From: Syntrophomonadaceae bacterium
Lineage (GTDB): Bacteria > Bacillota > Syntrophomonadia > Syntrophomonadales > DTU052
Length of the DNA: 64,000 nt
NCBI GenBank assembly: GCA_012729505.1
Contig: JAAYDA010000073.1
Coordinates: forward strand, 1 to 64,000
Direction of reading: 5' to 3'
Translations under genes and position numbers: made by a program
Shown here: piece by piece, positions 16,660 through 22,967 of the stretch
Layout: each line of letters opens with the position of its first letter
Numbering within the stretch: position 1 is the stretch's first letter
Notes under the pieces: generated by a model
What the model saw: the letters and a program-made list of their open reading frames with translations, nothing else
What the model was told of the DNA's origin: nothing
Database searches by the model: none

Positions 16660-18273
16660 TTAATCGGCAATTATCGTTTCACCCTTCTCTTTTAACATAT
16701 TCAGGTACACCATCAGCTCTTTGCGGGAAGCAACGTTCAGCTTTATATAAATTCGTTTGTTGTGGGTCTTAATGGTGTTGATGGACAGATAGAGAATGTC
16801 AGCTATCTCTTTGGCGGTATGTCCTTCCATATAGAGATTGAATACTGCACGTTCAGCAGGTGAAAGGCTGCCGATATTCTCCACGAATGCCTCAAACAAG
16901 CCGGTGGTATGGGCTTTGGAAACGATGGGTCCGGGTTTTATAGGCTCGGACTGATCTTGTGCCGCCAGGAACTCAAACAGGTCGTCAATTTCCTGTATAT
17001 TTGTTTTTTTGAAATTTGTGGCGTCTTTTTGCTGCATCTGCTTAAGCGCTTCTACAACAGGGGTAATGTAGCGGCGGCTTAAAAGCGCGGCGGCCGCAAC
17101 GCTGAAAGTCAGCAGCAGGACCAGCAAAATGAGAATGAAAGAATTTTGTGCCGCTACATAATCAGAAAAATCTTGCTCGGGAATCATAACTGCCACCGCC
17201 CAGCCGTTACCGGCGTGGGCGGAATCTTTTGGATACAGGTTAATAGGTTTGTAAAGACCGGCGTAAACGCCTCCCGTGGAGGTTGTGAAACTGTAAAGCC
17301 CTTTTCCATGCGCTTTTAGCCCCATACTCCCACTGAGGTCCTTGGGGCTTGCCAAACAGCTTCCGGCGAACAAGGCGCCGGATATATCGAAAGTCTCATC
17401 GTTATATGGCGAGAGCATCGAAAAAACTCGGGTATGAACAGAATTATCCGGGGAATTTTGCAGCTTAAACAGCATGGCGCTTATCTCAAAGCCGCAGGCT
17501 CCCAATATCGTTCCATCACGGGCGACTAATGGCACAGTCAGAAGAATGGCTTCCTGATAATCATTCTGCAGGATGCTCTTCGGGTTCCAATAGTATAACC
17601 GCGAGAGAGGAAGGTTGCTTCCTTTGGCGGTATCAATCACGGTGTGAAAAAAATCCCCCTCGGTTACCGCAAATTCCATTTGCCACTGCGGCAGTACTGT
17701 AAGTCCGTTTTGGCGGCTAATGTGAGCCGGTCCGCGCATATAACGGATGGATGACTCGGAGCGGTTGGCCGCGTTTGGCTCCATGTTCTTGAGGAACAGC
17801 CCGGCCCGTGAAAAAGCCGCGTTTTCCAAAACAGGATTTACCGTTGCGTCCAGTATCAGAAAGGCTCCGCTGACCTTGTTTTTTTCCAGAGCACCGTAGA
17901 GAATTTCCAGGCAGCTGTGCAATATAGAATTCAAGCATTCGGGTGAATCTTGCATCTCCGCAGGTGACAGCTTTTGTTCCTTCAGGGATTCTTCAATCTG
18001 CTCAGTCAGGCGTTTAGAGATTGCGACCCCCTCAACAGAAATGATGCCACAATCGGTGCTGATGTCTTCTGCTACGTGAGTCAGCTCGTTTTCAAGAAAA
18101 GCACGGCTCTCCTTCATTCCGGCTGTAAAAACGCCGGCAGCAATCAATAGCAGAAACAGGCCTGCCATCACCGCCATAAGAAATAAAAGAAAAAAAGCCA
18201 ACAGCCGTTTTTGCAGCGTCAGGCTGCCAGGCCAAAAAGACCGGACTTCGCTTAGCAGCTTAAACGGGTTCAT
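16660..18273 (-). CDS. Membrane-anchored LuxR-type transcriptional regulator with extracellular sensor
   Basis: The 537-residue protein has a first membrane helix (about 24-50), a ~320-residue extracellular region resembling a Cache-type ligand-binding domain, a second membrane helix (about 377-399), a short linker, and a LuxR/GerE helix-turn-helix at the C-terminus (about 470-525, with LSPAERAVFNLYMEGHTAKE and SINTIKTHNKRI). There is no kinase or receiver domain, so the signal would pass across the membrane straight to the DNA-binding domain. The neighbouring upstream gene on the same strand encodes a solute-binding lipoprotein that may present the ligand (inference). Confidence 0.82.
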   Translation of the reverse strand: MNPFKLLSEVRSFWPGSLTLQKRLLAFFLLFLMAVMAGLFLLLIAAGVFTAGMKESRAFLENELTHVAEDISTDCGIISVEGVAISKRLTEQIEESLKEQKLSPAEMQDSPECLNSILHSCLEILYGALEKNKVSGAFLILDATVNPVLENAAFSRAGLFLKNMEPNAANRSESSIRYMRGPAHISRQNGLTVLPQWQMEFAVTEGDFFHTVIDTAKGSNLPLSRLYYWNPKSILQNDYQEAILLTVPLVARDGTILGACGFEISAMLFKLQNSPDNSVHTRVFSMLSPYNDETFDISGALFAGSCLASPKDLSGSMGLKAHGKGLYSFTTSTGGVYAGLYKPINLYPKDSAHAGNGWAVAVMIPEQDFSDYVAAQNSFILILLVLLLTFSVAAAALLSRRYITPVVEALKQMQQKDATNFKKTNIQEIDDLFEFLAAQDQSEPIKPGPIVSKAHTTGLFEAFVENIGSLSPAERAVFNLYMEGHTAKEIADILYLSINTIKTHNKRIYIKLNVASRKELMVYLNMLKEKGETIIAD

Positions 18274-18330: not shown

Positions 18331-18449
18331 CTGCCCTAAGACCCCCGCCTCTAAAGGCGGCGGGTGCCCAAGGGCAGTTAAGTCCCTGGATCCGTGCGAC
18401 TAAGATTCAGATGGAGTCAAAACGCCACCTGAATCAAGTCTTACTTTAT
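18331..18449. repeat. Palindromic repeat element, copy 1 (possible IS200/IS605-type end)
   Basis: CTGCCCT (18331-18337) pairs with AGGGCAG (18371-18377) around an inner CCGCC/GGCGG hairpin. A second imperfect hairpin follows (GACTAAGATTCAGATGG against CCACCTGAATCAAGTC). The blocks 18398-18417 and 18431-18449 recur exactly, inverted, at 35964-35983 and 35933-35951. The element overlaps the stop codon of the solute-binding protein. The paired GC-rich hairpins look like IS200/IS605-type element ends, but no tnpA or tnpB is present. Confidence 0.6.
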
Positions 18450-19802
18450 AAAATCTGCCCACAGATCCTCAGACAATCTGTTAATGCCGGTTCCGGTCAG
18501 TACCTGCTGACGTCCTTTGTACATGGTTTGCCTGATTTGTTCTTCATAATCCTTGTTCATGGCATCAAAACCGGCGTAGTTGGGCGCTACGATAAACGAG
18601 TATTCAGCGTACATTCGCTTTGCTGCTTCTAACAGCTTTTTCATGTTGATGTTATCAACCGCGGCAATCTCCTGAGATATATTTTCATCATTGGCCTCTT
18701 TCGTCACAGGAAGATAACCGGTAGATGAAATAAAGCGCATATTGATATCCGGGCTGGTGAACCATTTGAGAAAGATGGCGGCGGCGTATTCCTGTTCCGG
18801 CGTGGATTTCTTGATTACCATGCCTGCTCCCCGCTGCAGGGCGATTTTTTCTCCGCCTTCAAAGGTTGGATATGGAAGGATGGTATATGAAACTTTCTCG
18901 ATGGTGTTGTCAGGATAGGTTATTGTATCTCCGTAAAACAAAATCCCCGCCGTTGAGCCGGTGGAGCATATGATATCACCGGTTTTGGAAAGGTCGGAGG
19001 AATAGCCGTTGTATACAGCGAAACCGCCGGATAATGCTGAGGGAATACAAAAATCCCAGATCTTTTTATAACTTAATGTGTCGGTCAAAAGCCGGTCCGG
19101 GCCCGCAAACATACTGCCCATTTGCGCCATACCTGTCTGTGCGATATTAGACCATGAATCCGCCGTGTAAAAGGTCTTACCGTCGTTGGGAATATCCGGA
19201 GTTTCAGCATCTGTCCACTCATAATATTTTGCAGCTGCGGCCGCAATTCCTTCGAAGGTGGCCAGACTTTCAACGGAAACACCTGTCGCGGCAGAAAAAC
19301 GGTCAAAAAGTGTTTGGTTGACAAACAGTACCTCGGTGGACTTGGCAATGGGAAACACATAGAGTTTATCATCTGAAAGACGGCCTTCTTCAATATATTG
19401 CGGAATGTATTCGGCTAGCTCGCTGGCGGTGAATTGATGTTCCAATGGGGCTAGCAGTCCTTTAGCGGCAAGCAGAGCCGCCGTTTTTGGGTAGGCAGTC
19501 ACAAGGTCCGGCATTTGGGGTGCACCGGGGTCTCCATTGGCGATCATTGCCAGCTTTTCTTCCTGTTCCTTCATAGCGGTAACGGAGGTAACGTTCAGGA
19601 TAATGCCGCGCTCCCGGCCAACGGTTACGTTGAACTCGTCTATCAGCTTATCCATGGTGGTTTGCATTTGACCGCCATAATTGTGCCACATGGTGATAGT
19701 CACCGGGTTCTTAGGGTCCAGCTTGGTACCGCCTTGGCATCCGGTCAGCATTCCGTACAGCAAGACAGCAACCAGCAGCATTGCCGGAATTATTCTTCTC
19801 AT
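18441..19802 (-). CDS. Extracellular solute-binding lipoprotein (sugar ABC type)
   Basis: The 453-residue protein has a lipoprotein signal with lipobox LTGC (Cys22) and the cluster B / family 1 solute-binding pattern: VTITMWHNYGGQ near the start, a long Glu- and Ala-rich helix, and FLKWFTSPDINMRF near residue 345. Such proteins bind carbohydrates outside the membrane and hand them to an ABC permease. No permease or ATPase gene is beside it; the same-strand downstream neighbour is the membrane LuxR regulator. It may act as a ligand-capturing co-sensor, or its permease is elsewhere. Confidence 0.85.
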   Translation of the reverse strand: MRRIIPAMLLVAVLLYGMLTGCQGGTKLDPKNPVTITMWHNYGGQMQTTMDKLIDEFNVTVGRERGIILNVTSVTAMKEQEEKLAMIANGDPGAPQMPDLVTAYPKTAALLAAKGLLAPLEHQFTASELAEYIPQYIEEGRLSDDKLYVFPIAKSTEVLFVNQTLFDRFSAATGVSVESLATFEGIAAAAAKYYEWTDAETPDIPNDGKTFYTADSWSNIAQTGMAQMGSMFAGPDRLLTDTLSYKKIWDFCIPSALSGGFAVYNGYSSDLSKTGDIICSTGSTAGILFYGDTITYPDNTIEKVSYTILPYPTFEGGEKIALQRGAGMVIKKSTPEQEYAAAIFLKWFTSPDINMRFISSTGYLPVTKEANDENISQEIAAVDNINMKKLLEAAKRMYAEYSFIVAPNYAGFDAMNKDYEEQIRQTMYKGRQQVLTGTGINRLSEDLWADFIK

Positions 19803-20035
19803 GTTATGTATTCCTCCCCCGGAATATTAATTCAATTGTTGTGCAGCCGCCTGAAAAGTCACCCGAAAATCGGCTCTGTTATCCCGCAAAATCACCCCAG
19901 GGGTGATTACAAACTCTGTATGGAACCTTATACTGAGAGCGAAAATCGGCCCGATAAAGCAGCTATCTGGAAAAAATTATACTGTGATAATCTAACTAAA
20001 TCAATCATTGGTCAGACACGAGAGAGGGTGAGAAT
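19803..20035. other. Divergent intergenic region with a perfect palindrome
   Basis: This region lies between the solute-binding protein (minus strand) and the zinc-ribbon cassette (plus strand). AATCACCCC (19890-19898) and GGGGTGATT (19900-19908) form a perfect palindrome around one base, a plausible operator about 90 bases upstream of the lipoprotein gene. No other gene or clear promoter is seen. Confidence 0.45.
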
Positions 20036-20142
20036 ATGAACGATGAAAAAAGGAGGGACTTATAGACGCGGTTACAGAGGCCATCCGCAAAATGGACTAT
20101 GGCGCGCTGCAAAAGCTGAACATGTTTATTGCGGGATTATAG
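20036..20142 (+). pseudogene. Small open frame interrupted by a frameshift
   Basis: ATG 20036 follows GAGAGGGTGAG but stops after nine codons. One frame over, the same stretch reads KEGLIDAVTEAIRKMDYGAL and ends at 20142. One extra A in the A-run at 20046-20051 would restore a ~36-codon gene. It resembles short helical proteins seen in Clostridia, but no name can be given. A sequencing error in the A-run is possible. Confidence 0.35.
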
Positions 20143-20179
20143 GTCCAGCGAAGCAGTAGGCGGGAGGAGGAGAAATGAT

Positions 20180-20470
20180 TTGAAAGTGGAGCTTATATTA
20201 AAAAGCGTGATGAAAAGAGAAAATGGCGATTATGTTTTTTCTTATTTCTGTGATTTATGTGATACAGCTTTCACAACTAAGCGGATTGCCGCCGCCGATG
20301 TCAAGGAAGCGACCCGGCTTTCTATAGAAGAAGCGCGACGACATTTCAACCGCTGTCATTCTTGCCATATATGGGTGTGTGATGACCACTACAACGAGGC
20401 CGTGATGATGTGTACCATTTGCAGTCCCCGCGAAAAGAAAAGAGGAGATGATTCCGATGGCAACCTATAA
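20180..20470 (+). CDS. Cys/His-rich zinc-binding protein (cassette gene 1)
   Basis: The 96-residue protein starts at TTG 20180 after GAGGAGGAG. It has CDLC near residue 24 and a C-terminal cluster HFNRCHSCHIWVCDDHYNEA ending MCTIC. The same cluster recurs in the 20801-21553 product (HFHRCHSCHKYVCDVCHNEE), so the two are paralogues of one binding fold. It overlaps the next gene by 14 bases. No enzyme motif is seen and I do not recognise the family. Confidence 0.7.
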   Translation: MKVELILKSVMKRENGDYVFSYFCDLCDTAFTTKRIAAADVKEATRLSIEEARRHFNRCHSCHIWVCDDHYNEAVMMCTICSPREKKRGDDSDGNL

Positions 20471-20786
20471 ACAGCCCTGCCATCACTGTAGTACATATAT
20501 TGAGAGTGATGCCCGTTTTTGCCCTGAATGCGGAAGTTACAGCCCCTTCGGCTATTCTTGCCCAACATGTCTGAGTGCTATAAAAAAGGGATGGTCCCTT
20601 TGCGCTGGGTGCGGAAGGTCGTTGATCATCACTTGCCCAAACTGCGGGCAAGAGAGCTTTGTGCAGGAAAAATGCCAGGCTTGCGGCGTTTCCCTGATGC
20701 GTCGCTGTGAGAACTCTCGCTGTAGAGAACTGCAATTTTTCGAAAATACGAAATGCACTGCCTGTGGCAAGAAAATTAAAAAATAG
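20457..20786 (+). CDS. Tandem zinc-ribbon protein (cassette gene 2)
   Basis: The 109-residue protein consists almost wholly of zinc-ribbon knuckles: CHHC, CPEC, CPTC, CAGC, CPNC, CQAC, CENSRC and CTAC, eight Cys pairs that could bind four zinc ions. It ends in a basic tail. The ATG at 20457 is preferred because AGAGGAG ends at 20447, touching the other ATG at 20448. Domains like this usually mediate protein or nucleic-acid contacts. Its role in the cassette is unknown. Confidence 0.75.
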   Translation: MATYKQPCHHCSTYIESDARFCPECGSYSPFGYSCPTCLSAIKKGWSLCAGCGRSLIITCPNCGQESFVQEKCQACGVSLMRRCENSRCRELQFFENTKCTACGKKIKK

Positions 20787-20800
20787 AGGGGGACAGTTTC

Positions 20801-21553
20801 GTGTTAAAAGCGTTTACTCGAAATTATGAGGATAATTCCACTGAGGCAGGGTTCCAGTTCACTTTCTATTGTGACAATTGCTCGGATGGATATAAAAGCA
20901 GCTTCATTGAATCGGAAACTTACAAAAAAGGAAAAGGGCTGAGAGGACTGGCGGCCGGTGTGGGGCTGCTGGGGAGTCTGATCGGAGGAAGTGCTTCCAG
21001 CCTGGGTTATGCTGCCGAAAGGGGAAGTAATATCCTTTCAGAACGGTTTACCGGTATGAGTCCCGAATGGCAGAAGGAGCATGATAAAGCATTTGAGCGA
21101 GGGCAGAATGAAGCTCATAGCCATTTCCACCGCTGTCATTCCTGTCACAAGTATGTCTGTGATGTCTGCCACAACGAGGAGGAAGGATTATGTGTGGAAT
21201 GTGCTCCGCGTCAGGAAATCTTTGTTGCTAAGGCACGTGCCGATGCTATGCGGCGCAACATTGAGGAAGCCGGTGATAGTGCCACCGTCTGGCAAGGCAG
21301 GATTGAGAGCAAGCAGGCTGTATGTTCTTCCTGCGGCAAACCGGCGGGTTCAGGCAAGTTTTGCAGCAATTGTGGCGCCTCTATGGAGCTGGCGGTCTGT
21401 CTAAAATGCGGGGCTAAAAATGCGCACGATGTTCGTTTCTGCAATAATTGCGGCACACCCATGAACGCCCCTAAAGCAGTCAACTGTCCCGGTTGTGGGG
21501 AGGAAAATTCGCCCGGCACCAACTTCTGCGGTGGCTGTGGTACAAAGCTTTAA
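20801..21553 (+). CDS. Glycine-helix and multi-zinc-ribbon protein (cassette gene 3)
   Basis: The 250-residue product starts at GTG 20801 after GAGGGGGA. It has an N-terminal CDNC knuckle and a Gly/Ala-rich stretch (about 47-75, GLAAGVGLLGSLIGG) that could associate with membranes. The HFHRCHSCHKYVCDVCHNEE cluster follows near 107-126. Three C-terminal zinc ribbons follow (CSSC/CSNC, CLKC/CNNC, CPGC/CGGC). It combines the features of the two preceding gene products, suggesting they assemble together. Function unknown. Confidence 0.75.
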   Translation: MLKAFTRNYEDNSTEAGFQFTFYCDNCSDGYKSSFIESETYKKGKGLRGLAAGVGLLGSLIGGSASSLGYAAERGSNILSERFTGMSPEWQKEHDKAFERGQNEAHSHFHRCHSCHKYVCDVCHNEEEGLCVECAPRQEIFVAKARADAMRRNIEEAGDSATVWQGRIESKQAVCSSCGKPAGSGKFCSNCGASMELAVCLKCGAKNAHDVRFCNNCGTPMNAPKAVNCPGCGEENSPGTNFCGGCGTKL

Positions 21554-21575
21554 TTACCAATGAGGAGAGAGCATC

Positions 21576-22760
21576 ATGTCATCAAGTGAATACTCCGCAC
21601 ATTTAAAATGCCTTCAATTAACGGGGCAAGTGAAGCTGACCATAGATGAGGCCGGGCTTTTTATCGCTTCGTTATTTGACGGAATTGTAATTCTATATTC
21701 GGAAATAACTGCTATTGACTTGAGGGACTATGCAGTCCAGATTCATAGCGATGCCGACATATACACATTATCCCGTTTTGAAAGGGGCTGTGAACCATTT
21801 TATAATACACTCAACGAAGCTTTTAATAAAAAGGTGCGTAAAGCCTTGTTCGTTACCGACACGCCGGTCTTCAGGACGAGGGGTGAATACCGTTATGAAG
21901 AGGAAGACAAGAACGTGAGCGGGAAGGCTGTTATTGAAGTCTATAAGGACTGTGTCCTGATTCTGCCACCTGACGATGGCGCCCGGAGAATACCTATTTG
22001 TTTTGCCGGTGGTATGCAGGATAATGATTTTGAGCTTATTCTAAGCCTCGGCACCGGTGAGAGCTATTCATTTATACGTCTGGGGCACGATACGGATACT
22101 TTTGTGGAATGCTTGGCCGACAGGCTGCATTTTCTGCGGACTCGCGCGCTTAGCGCTGTTCGCGCACTGGACGGCAGCCTTAATTCTGCGCAGGCATCGG
22201 CAATCGCAAAGCTGATGCCGGAGGGTGTTGCTGTACCGCTTCACAAACTTGCGGCGATAGCGCCGTCTTTTGTCACGGCGGTGGAAGCGCAGGTAAGCCA
22301 AAGCCGCGTAGGCAATGAATACCGGTTTTTCAAGGAGATATGTGACCCCTTGGAGGTTTGCGTTGGGATGAAGTCAGGATTGGCCGGAGAGCAAAACCAG
22401 GATGTTTTGTGGATTATTGCGCCCGGCAAGAAACCAGGTGTAGCGGCGGTGGAGCTGGCGACGGGAGTGGAAACGGCGGCGGCTACATTTATGTACAGGT
22501 TTTTGGAAAGCTGGGGTGTCTTTTACCCGGCCCTTAATCGCGCTATGGAAGCGGTGAATTTTAAACGAGAGATTATCCGGCTGACGGATGATGAGCTAAA
22601 AATGCCTGAATATGCTGATTACGCCATGGCGGTAAAACGTACGAGGGCTTTGAGATTTTTGCGGGACCGGTTTGCCGGACGTGTCATACATGCATCGGAA
22701 GAATCCTGGAAGCGGGAGATAGTGTCTTACATGAATCCTGTTCAGATTGCCATTAATTAA
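21576..22760 (+). CDS. Conserved hypothetical protein with PH-like N-terminus (cassette gene 4)
   Basis: The 394-residue protein has a beta-rich N-terminal ~90 residues in a pattern like a bacterial PH domain (LTIDEAGLFIASLFDGIVIL and YSEITAIDLRDYAVQIHS). A second similar beta-rich unit follows (about 110-200), then a helical C-terminal half. There is no signal peptide, clear membrane helix or catalytic motif. It follows the zinc-ribbon genes by 22 bases with its own AGGAGAG site, so it belongs to the same operon. PH-like modules often bind lipids or proteins; here that is only inference. Confidence 0.65.
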   Translation: MSSSEYSAHLKCLQLTGQVKLTIDEAGLFIASLFDGIVILYSEITAIDLRDYAVQIHSDADIYTLSRFERGCEPFYNTLNEAFNKKVRKALFVTDTPVFRTRGEYRYEEEDKNVSGKAVIEVYKDCVLILPPDDGARRIPICFAGGMQDNDFELILSLGTGESYSFIRLGHDTDTFVECLADRLHFLRTRALSAVRALDGSLNSAQASAIAKLMPEGVAVPLHKLAAIAPSFVTAVEAQVSQSRVGNEYRFFKEICDPLEVCVGMKSGLAGEQNQDVLWIIAPGKKPGVAAVELATGVETAAATFMYRFLESWGVFYPALNRAMEAVNFKREIIRLTDDELKMPEYADYAMAVKRTRALRFLRDRFAGRVIHASEESWKREIVSYMNPVQIAIN

Positions 22761-22826: not shown

Positions 22827-22967
22827 ATGAAGAAGAAAAAACCGCGGATTGCAAAAATACGGGACATAGGTGTTTTTCATTTGCGGAGCCGAAAAGCCGG
22901 CCCCCAGACTCGGAAGAAGAAAGCCATAAAAAAGTTTTCGGTCCAGGATGAATTGTCAAAGCATTAA
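22827..22967 (+). CDS. Small basic protein, 46 residues
   Basis: ATG 22827 follows AAGGGGG at a normal distance. The product is strongly basic (MKKKKPRIAKIRD, later TRKKKAIKKF), with about a third Lys plus Arg, no Cys and no signal. It could be a small RNA- or DNA-binding protein, or a chance frame; the ribosome binding site and its fit between neighbours favour a real gene. No family is recognised. Confidence 0.45.
   Translation: MKKKKPRIAKIRDIGVFHLRSRKAGPQTRKKKAIKKFSVQDELSKH

Follow-up and report, generated by a model that had tools for sequence, protein, structure and literature searches.

What is the role of a compact group of four genes, here called P1 to P4, that joins three zinc proteins to a larger partner and for which the libraries searched give no functional name for P1, P4, or the N-terminal domain of P3? 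The group lies in the window (the whole stretch of 64,000 nt analyzed here, from a Syntrophomonadaceae bacterium), and its features and those just to its left are as follows.

16660-18273, - strand: C, membrane one-component regulator (537 aa)
18441-19802, - strand: B, orphan solute-binding lipoprotein (453 aa; Pfam SBP_bac_8, 5.9e-29)
19890-19908: predicted operator, perfect palindrome AATCACCCC-A-GGGGTGATT, between B and P1
19906-19934, + strand: predicted cassette promoter, -35 ATTACA overlapping the operator, 17 nt, -10 TATACT
20180-20470, + strand: P1, zinc protein with HFNRCHSCHxxVCD (TTG start, 96 aa), a minimal version of the P3 N-terminal domain
20457-20786, + strand: P2, zinc-ribbon (DZR) protein with seven CxxC pairs (basis: Pfam DZR, 4.8e-15, and family alignment)
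20801-21553, + strand: P3, core protein (GTG start, 250 aa)
20936-21043, + strand: glycine-rich insert of P3 (residues 46-81), placed by pLDDT and by composition over 89 relatives
21576-22760, + strand: P4 (394 aa)

The cassette and its proteins

All four open reading frames are present on the + strand at 20180-22760. The gaps between P1 and P2, P2 and P3, and P3 and P4 are -14, 14, and 22 nt, respectively, and this spacing is therefore consistent with a single operon; none exceeds 22 nt, which agrees with the compact four-gene operon described in an earlier note on this DNA. A plausible ribosome-binding site precedes each gene, and a GGAGGAGG site lies upstream of P1. The family alignment places the start of P2 at its second ATG (MATYKQPC), which gives the 14-nt overlap with the end of P1. 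Between the promoter and P1 there is a short coding-like stretch (20039-20145; MNDEKRRDL / IDAVTEAIRKMDYGALQKLNMFIAGL) that, without its frame change, would encode a single small protein; it may be a decayed gene, a frameshift, or a sequencing error. Right after P4 on the same strand is a small basic 46-aa ORF (22827-22967; MKKKKPRIAKIRDIGVFHL...), and a lipoprotein with a DUF4412/LolA-like match lies 306 nt past P4 (23067-23756); in nine P3 loci there are recurrent small lipoproteins that belong to a different cluster (E).

The HFxRCHSCHxxVCD cluster that the earlier note had seen in two of the proteins belongs to P1 and P3. Because these two match in BLASTP (E 4e-12, 53% over 36 residues) and their profiles align with an hhalign probability of 99.6% over 96 columns, the zinc cluster they have in common reflects true homology and not chance. 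P3 consists of a split zinc domain (about residues 1-35 and 88-140) interrupted by the glycine-rich insert, followed by a helix and a zinc-ribbon tail, and P1 is the N-terminal zinc domain of P3 without the insert and without the tail. P2 and the C-terminal tail of P3 match Pfam DZR (PF12773) with 55.9 and 59.5 bits, respectively, well above the gathering cut-off of 27.3, whereas for P1, the N-terminal domain of P3, and the whole of P4 nothing in Pfam or NCBIfam scored above cut-off.

The structural model of P3 (pLDDT 73.5) is poorer than that of P4 and gave no significant match in Foldseek. Its glycine-rich insert (21% glycine compared to 11% for whole P3, over 89 relatives) is predicted to be disordered (pLDDT 38-52), and its maximal KD19 hydrophobicity, 1.47 in the window protein with a family median of 0.77, is too low for a transmembrane helix. 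The "glycine-rich helix" that the earlier note assigned to the third protein is thus not supported by the model, although the insert could possibly be an amphipathic or peripheral membrane segment. The same note took the cassette to be a membrane-associated assembly, a view that finds little backing in the proteins themselves: no transmembrane segment, lipid anchor, or signal peptide was found in any of them, and the KD19 maxima are at most 1.47 for P1 through P3 and 1.71 for P4, the latter inside PH-fold strands.

A stand-alone subfamily of P3 (about 215 aa, "NYSDLSTNKGFQFEFYCDRCGSGYRT") lies outside any cassette and is also present in the window's own family and order; its members are the following.

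L141, 8041-8691: stand-alone P3 relative
L142, 8110-8754: stand-alone P3 relative
L144, 7525-8172: stand-alone P3 relative
L145, 997-1641: stand-alone P3 relative
L146, 3015-3674: stand-alone P3 relative

The existence of these relatives suggests that the P3 domain can work without P4 and that its zinc domain would have a more general role.

The AlphaFold2 model of P4, built from 14 sequences, has a mean pLDDT of 89.3. It comprises a first PH-like unit (residues 1-90; strands 4-66 and helix 73-90), a second one (99-198; strands 99-167 and helix 170-198), a helical linker, and a novel alpha/beta domain (about 200-389). With two seven-strand units, each capped by a helix, P4 as modeled has the tandem PH fold, and its top Foldseek matches in the PDB are double-PH proteins, namely FACT subunits and Rtt106 (E ~1e-4). 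The earlier note had called the 394-residue protein PH-like from sequence alone, and model and fold search agree with it. Like the middle domain of FACT Spt16/Pob3 and Rtt106, P4 carries two PH folds in tandem, but it is only about 10% identical to them, aligns with a low whole-chain TM-score (the domains are differently arranged), and has the extra C-terminal domain, which apart from one weak match was found only in genomes with P4. No bacterial PH family in Pfam matches P4 above cut-off (the best is DUF2794, E 0.08), sequence profiles of the PDB contain no relative of it, and a single-sequence P4 scan of genome contigs found no match, the family being too divergent for exact peptides.

These structural matches bear on the reading that the cassette makes a nucleic-acid- or ribosome-linked complex, in which the P2 and P3 ribbons would bind RNA or DNA, P4 would be an adaptor, and expression would merely be tied to envelope stress. 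Zinc ribbons often bind nucleic acids, and PH folds have many uses, not always membrane binding; ribbons of DNA polymerase D and ribosomal L32/L40e are among the weak profile matches of P3, tandem PH domains of the FACT and Rtt106 chaperones lead the fold matches of P4, and the whole cassette is devoid of transmembrane segments. However, the P3 matches in the PDB profiles are at the level of the ribbon only (E of 0.006 or more), those of P4 to FACT-like proteins reflect fold, and the neighbors of the cassette are surface proteins and regulators rather than translation or DNA-repair genes; we consider this reading rather unlikely.

Conservation and composition of the module

P4 was found in 15 of 399 genomes sampled from the phylum (that of the window and 14 more). 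An independent P3 profile search of the same 399 genomes found P3 in 24, among them all 15 with P4 (hypergeometric p ~2e-21), and in the P4 genomes the order P4-P2-P3 or P3-P4 is contiguous where the assembly allows it (in G266 the locus is divided over two contigs). Pairwise distances are correlated between P3 and P4 (0.76) and between P3 and P2 (0.68), values reached in 0 of 500 permutations and to which the shared history of the organisms contributes. Zinc ribbons are common, low-complexity domains, which could let unrelated ribbon genes lie together by accident; the 15/15 co-occurrence, the adjacency repeated in differing gene orders (P4-P2-P3, P2-P3-P4, and P3-P4), and the promoter in common make this scarcely credible, and the neighborhood survey refutes it. 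The earlier note had asked for just such a survey and held that genes failing to co-occur would speak against a system; the genes do in fact co-occur in many other genomes.

The spread is patchy, in that none of the other 62 genomes in the class carries P4, a pattern that would also suit an anti-phage or other conflict system. Nevertheless, PADLOC and PHROGs gave no notable match (the best in PADLOC, Cas10d at E 0.054 for P1, is not meaningful), no viral or plasmid relatives of P4 were found, the P4 model has single PH-like matches at best in a viral structure library (Foldseek), and the unit has no nuclease, toxin, or NTPase and no defense genes among its recurrent neighbor clusters. A role in conflict is thus most improbable. 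The claim of an undescribed system holds up in that no characterized complex was matched in Pfam, NCBIfam, PADLOC, PHROGs, PDB profiles, or Foldseek.

A scan of genome contigs that used the P3 alignment turned up 425 relatives; the 80 best were kept. Genes at these loci were called with a cysteine bonus, since cysteine-rich genes are otherwise masked by antisense ORFs. Partners within four genes on the same strand were P2 in 67, a gene called X in 56, P4 in 31, and P1 in 17 of the best 80 of the 425 loci, all of them lower bounds because of contig ends. P2-P3 is the near-universal core. X is a fifth subunit, absent from the window, that usually precedes P2; it encodes about 155-190 aa with a glycine-rich amphipathic start, a coiled coil, and two or three ribbons. 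The order P1-P2-P3-P4 without X recurs in L038, and P1-X-P2-P3-P4 is found in four loci. Thus the four-gene cassette of the earlier note is a real and conserved unit, but it is only one variant of a module built on P2-P3 to which X is often added. The P3 relatives are mostly from anaerobic Clostridia, with some in Actinomycetota (Coriobacteriia and Propionibacteriaceae MAGs). One cassette (L060, JAISHD010000014.1) is on a contig labeled as a Methanocalculaceae archaeon, which is probably bacterial and wrongly binned.

The make-up of X points to another possible function, a sub-membrane stress scaffold like PSP, Lia, or YdjFGHL, in which the glycine-rich segments of X and P3 would bind the inner leaflet, P4 would recruit, and the membrane would be repaired or stiffened. 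The glycine-rich amphipathic N-terminus, coiled coil, and ribbons of X fit such a role, and LolA-like/DUF4412 and DUF4870-like envelope proteins recur nearby. According to PMC11237479, the Firmicute ydjFGHL operon (B. subtilis) links zinc ribbons to PspA and to a band-7 protein, and these PSP-associated operons resemble the cassette in having ribbons in small, envelope-linked, signal-controlled operons. On the other hand, PspA, band-7, PspC, Toastrack, and TPM-phosphatase proteins were not recognized among the recurrent neighbors at about 96 loci (clusters and sequences inspected), P3, P4, and X are not described in the consulted passages of that paper, and the window itself has no X; such a scaffold is quite unlikely.

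Divergent putative sensors, predicted operator and promoter

The earlier note placed the four genes correctly but left out what is divergent from them, namely B, the membrane LuxR regulator C, and the operator and promoter, and these are the best clues to the function of the cassette. C has transmembrane segments at residues 26-44 and 380-398 around an extracytoplasmic region of about 335 residues and ends in a LuxR (GerE) helix-turn-helix (HTH; Pfam GerE, 2.8e-14; the only other matches are overlapping ones to sigma-70 region 4). With membrane segments, a LuxR HTH, and no kinase domain, it is a transmembrane LuxR regulator. B has a signal sequence with an LTGC lipobox, and no ABC permease or transporter genes lie alongside it.

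C is present in 14 P3 loci, and B adjoins it in nearly all loci with C. In the window the C-B pair points away from the cassette, as it does in L035, L038, L051 (Syntrophomonas zehnderi), L052, L053 (Bittarella), L076, and L103 (an Eggerthellaceae MAG). Distantly related organisms share this arrangement of C-B divergent from P1 or X, and for 20 of the 21 P1 genes a LuxR-type regulator or B is no more than two genes away. The membrane regulators next to cassettes are of three unrelated sensor types. Besides C there is a D-type, a multi-transmembrane LuxR protein with about 12 such segments in L066; the L072 (663 aa) and L105 (690 aa) regulators have a secreted, right-handed beta-helix-like outer part, transmembrane segments, and the same HTH.

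A regulon of C dedicated to the cassette was considered and is ruled out. An independent search of the 399 genomes gave 19 strong C matches, 8 of them in P3 genomes (p 2e-6), often elsewhere in the genome, and the other 11 of the 19 genomes have no P3; in genomes without the cassette, C and B lie opposite other operons, encoding a TPR protein or lipoproteins. Judging from these arrangements, C would be a broader envelope regulator. Among L170-L187, one family has C-B opposite a TPR protein (about 400 aa) and a CsgG/FlgO-like secreted protein, and another has it opposite gene(s) of unknown family.

The operator is the sole match to its pattern in the window at up to three mismatches (0.03 expected from shuffling), and at the same threshold the organism's own genome contains 12 sites compared to 1 in a reversed control. 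Matches there in radC (C38) and in a ribonuclease-like gene (C15) lie inside coding sequence and are attributed to chance. The consensus across genomes, AATCACCCC-N-GGGGTGATT, is kept between the divergent genes at other C/B loci and is also found upstream of cassettes led by X. With a slightly degenerate pattern at up to one mismatch, 18 C-bearing genomes contain 32 sites against 2 control matches, and all 18 have at least one. The background quantiles of the upstream-operator survey contain true sites and are thus too strict; shuffled, reversed, and promoter controls were used instead. At 34 of 38 sites a -10 element of at least 5/6 lies, in one direction, 16-18 nt after a hexamer that overlaps an operator arm (control 2.8%). 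In the window, the promoter centers the operator near -42, which is the class II activator position for LuxR-type proteins; the comparison among genomes lends good support to the prediction that the operator is positioned for class II activation by C.

The operator is not confined to loci with a divergent C-B pair, since it lies 83-113 bp upstream of the first cassette gene in L089, L091, L104, L067/L148, and L074, which lack one. The D-type loci L066, L069, and L075 have a related palindrome, ATCCCCCC-N2-GGGGGAT. On the far side of the operator palindrome, the divergent regions of L171-L177, L104, and L089 contain two additional direct half-sites (GGGGTGATTTTTGGGGTGATTTT), an arrangement that suggests cooperative binding. 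A membrane LuxR protein is within six genes in 26 of 96 P3 loci and in 70 of the 96 none is so near, and only about 11 of 89 P3 loci have a clear upstream operator. Many cassettes are therefore likely to be controlled otherwise than by a nearby membrane LuxR protein and this operator.

The genome's two other intergenic sites of the strong, promoter-type kind are both ahead of giant surface proteins. The first (C41:1075) precedes a DUF4870-like small membrane protein, a DUF6591 lipoprotein, and a 1902-aa SLH/InlB-repeat protein. The second (C77:9689) precedes an AraC-type regulator, a short ORF, a lipoprotein, and an Ig-like-repeat protein of at least 1499 aa. In other genomes, sites are ahead of a giant lipoprotein (G383) and of a beta-helix surface protein with a small lipoprotein (G438), and in L067/L148 a lipoprotein of 1988/2108 aa directly follows P3. 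The regulon thus seems to concern largely the cell surface. The operon at C41 spans 1075-7970 of L202, and its DUF4870-like and DUF6591 proteins recur beside C-B or P3 in other genomes.

What the cassette may do

The explanation that we prefer, tentatively and at somewhat under an even chance, is a signal-responsive cell-envelope program in which an outside signal induces surface proteins and, along with them, a zinc-ribbon/PH adaptor complex in the cytoplasm. An outside ligand would bind the orphan lipoprotein B, and B would signal to the outer domain of C. C would then bind the palindrome beside the -35 box, in the class II position, and activate the divergent cassette, a step that is well supported by comparison, as is its predicted activation of giant surface-protein and lipoprotein operons elsewhere in the genome. 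P1 through P4 (with X in many relatives) are inherited as one cytoplasmic module, as its conservation shows. Within it, P4 may assemble with the zinc domains of P1 and P3 and with the P2 and P3 ribbons, and its tandem PH folds would then serve as an adaptor or as a surface for docking. Placed on the inner side of the membrane or close to it, this complex would support the envelope or surface change induced by the same signal.

Regulation of the cassette by membrane sensors is, as a prediction, well supported; its biochemical role and its membrane attachment we infer. The weakest step is the last, that an adaptor complex of P1 through P4 near the membrane would support the surface change. A scaffold or adaptor role is favored over an enzyme because no catalytic domain was found. 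A bolder form of the adaptor-complex explanation, possible though doubtful, is that P1-X-P2-P3-P4 is a new sub-membrane assembly with a unique zinc domain and a tandem-PH adaptor whose C-terminal domain is exclusive to it, placed under several unrelated membrane LuxR sensors and coupling an outside signal to surface remodeling.

The closest known regulators are the transmembrane LuxR-type proteins DadR, HcdR, and CadR of Eggerthella lenta, which activate adjacent target genes on a signal (Dong et al. 2022, PMC9734109). Like these, C has a membrane-anchored LuxR HTH, has no kinase, and is encoded beside its putative target genes, and the D-type regulator of cassette locus L066, with its roughly 12 membrane segments, has the published E. 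lenta layout. In contrast, two membrane segments flank the large outer domain of C, and C has a partner in the orphan solute-binding lipoprotein B; the third kind of regulator at cassettes has a beta-helix-like secreted part. The E. lenta targets are metabolic enzymes and not a zinc-ribbon/PH cassette, and the text of PMC9734109 mentions no binding motif or palindrome. No description of the cassette was found in the literature searched. The known kind here would be a membrane-sensor-controlled envelope operon, and the new element an undescribed output module.

P3 relatives occur in hundreds of anaerobes from gut, rumen, termite gut, and digesters, including the named isolates Syntrophomonas zehnderi, Bittarella massiliensis, Eubacterium aggregans, and Diplocloster modestus. 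The operator and promoter make the system testable in that they name a regulator, a site, co-regulated surface proteins, and subunits. If the proposed assembly is real, unrelated membrane-bound LuxR sensors would have been placed independently over one cassette, and a tandem-PH adaptor connected to such sensors in bacteria would represent a novel type of envelope signaling output.
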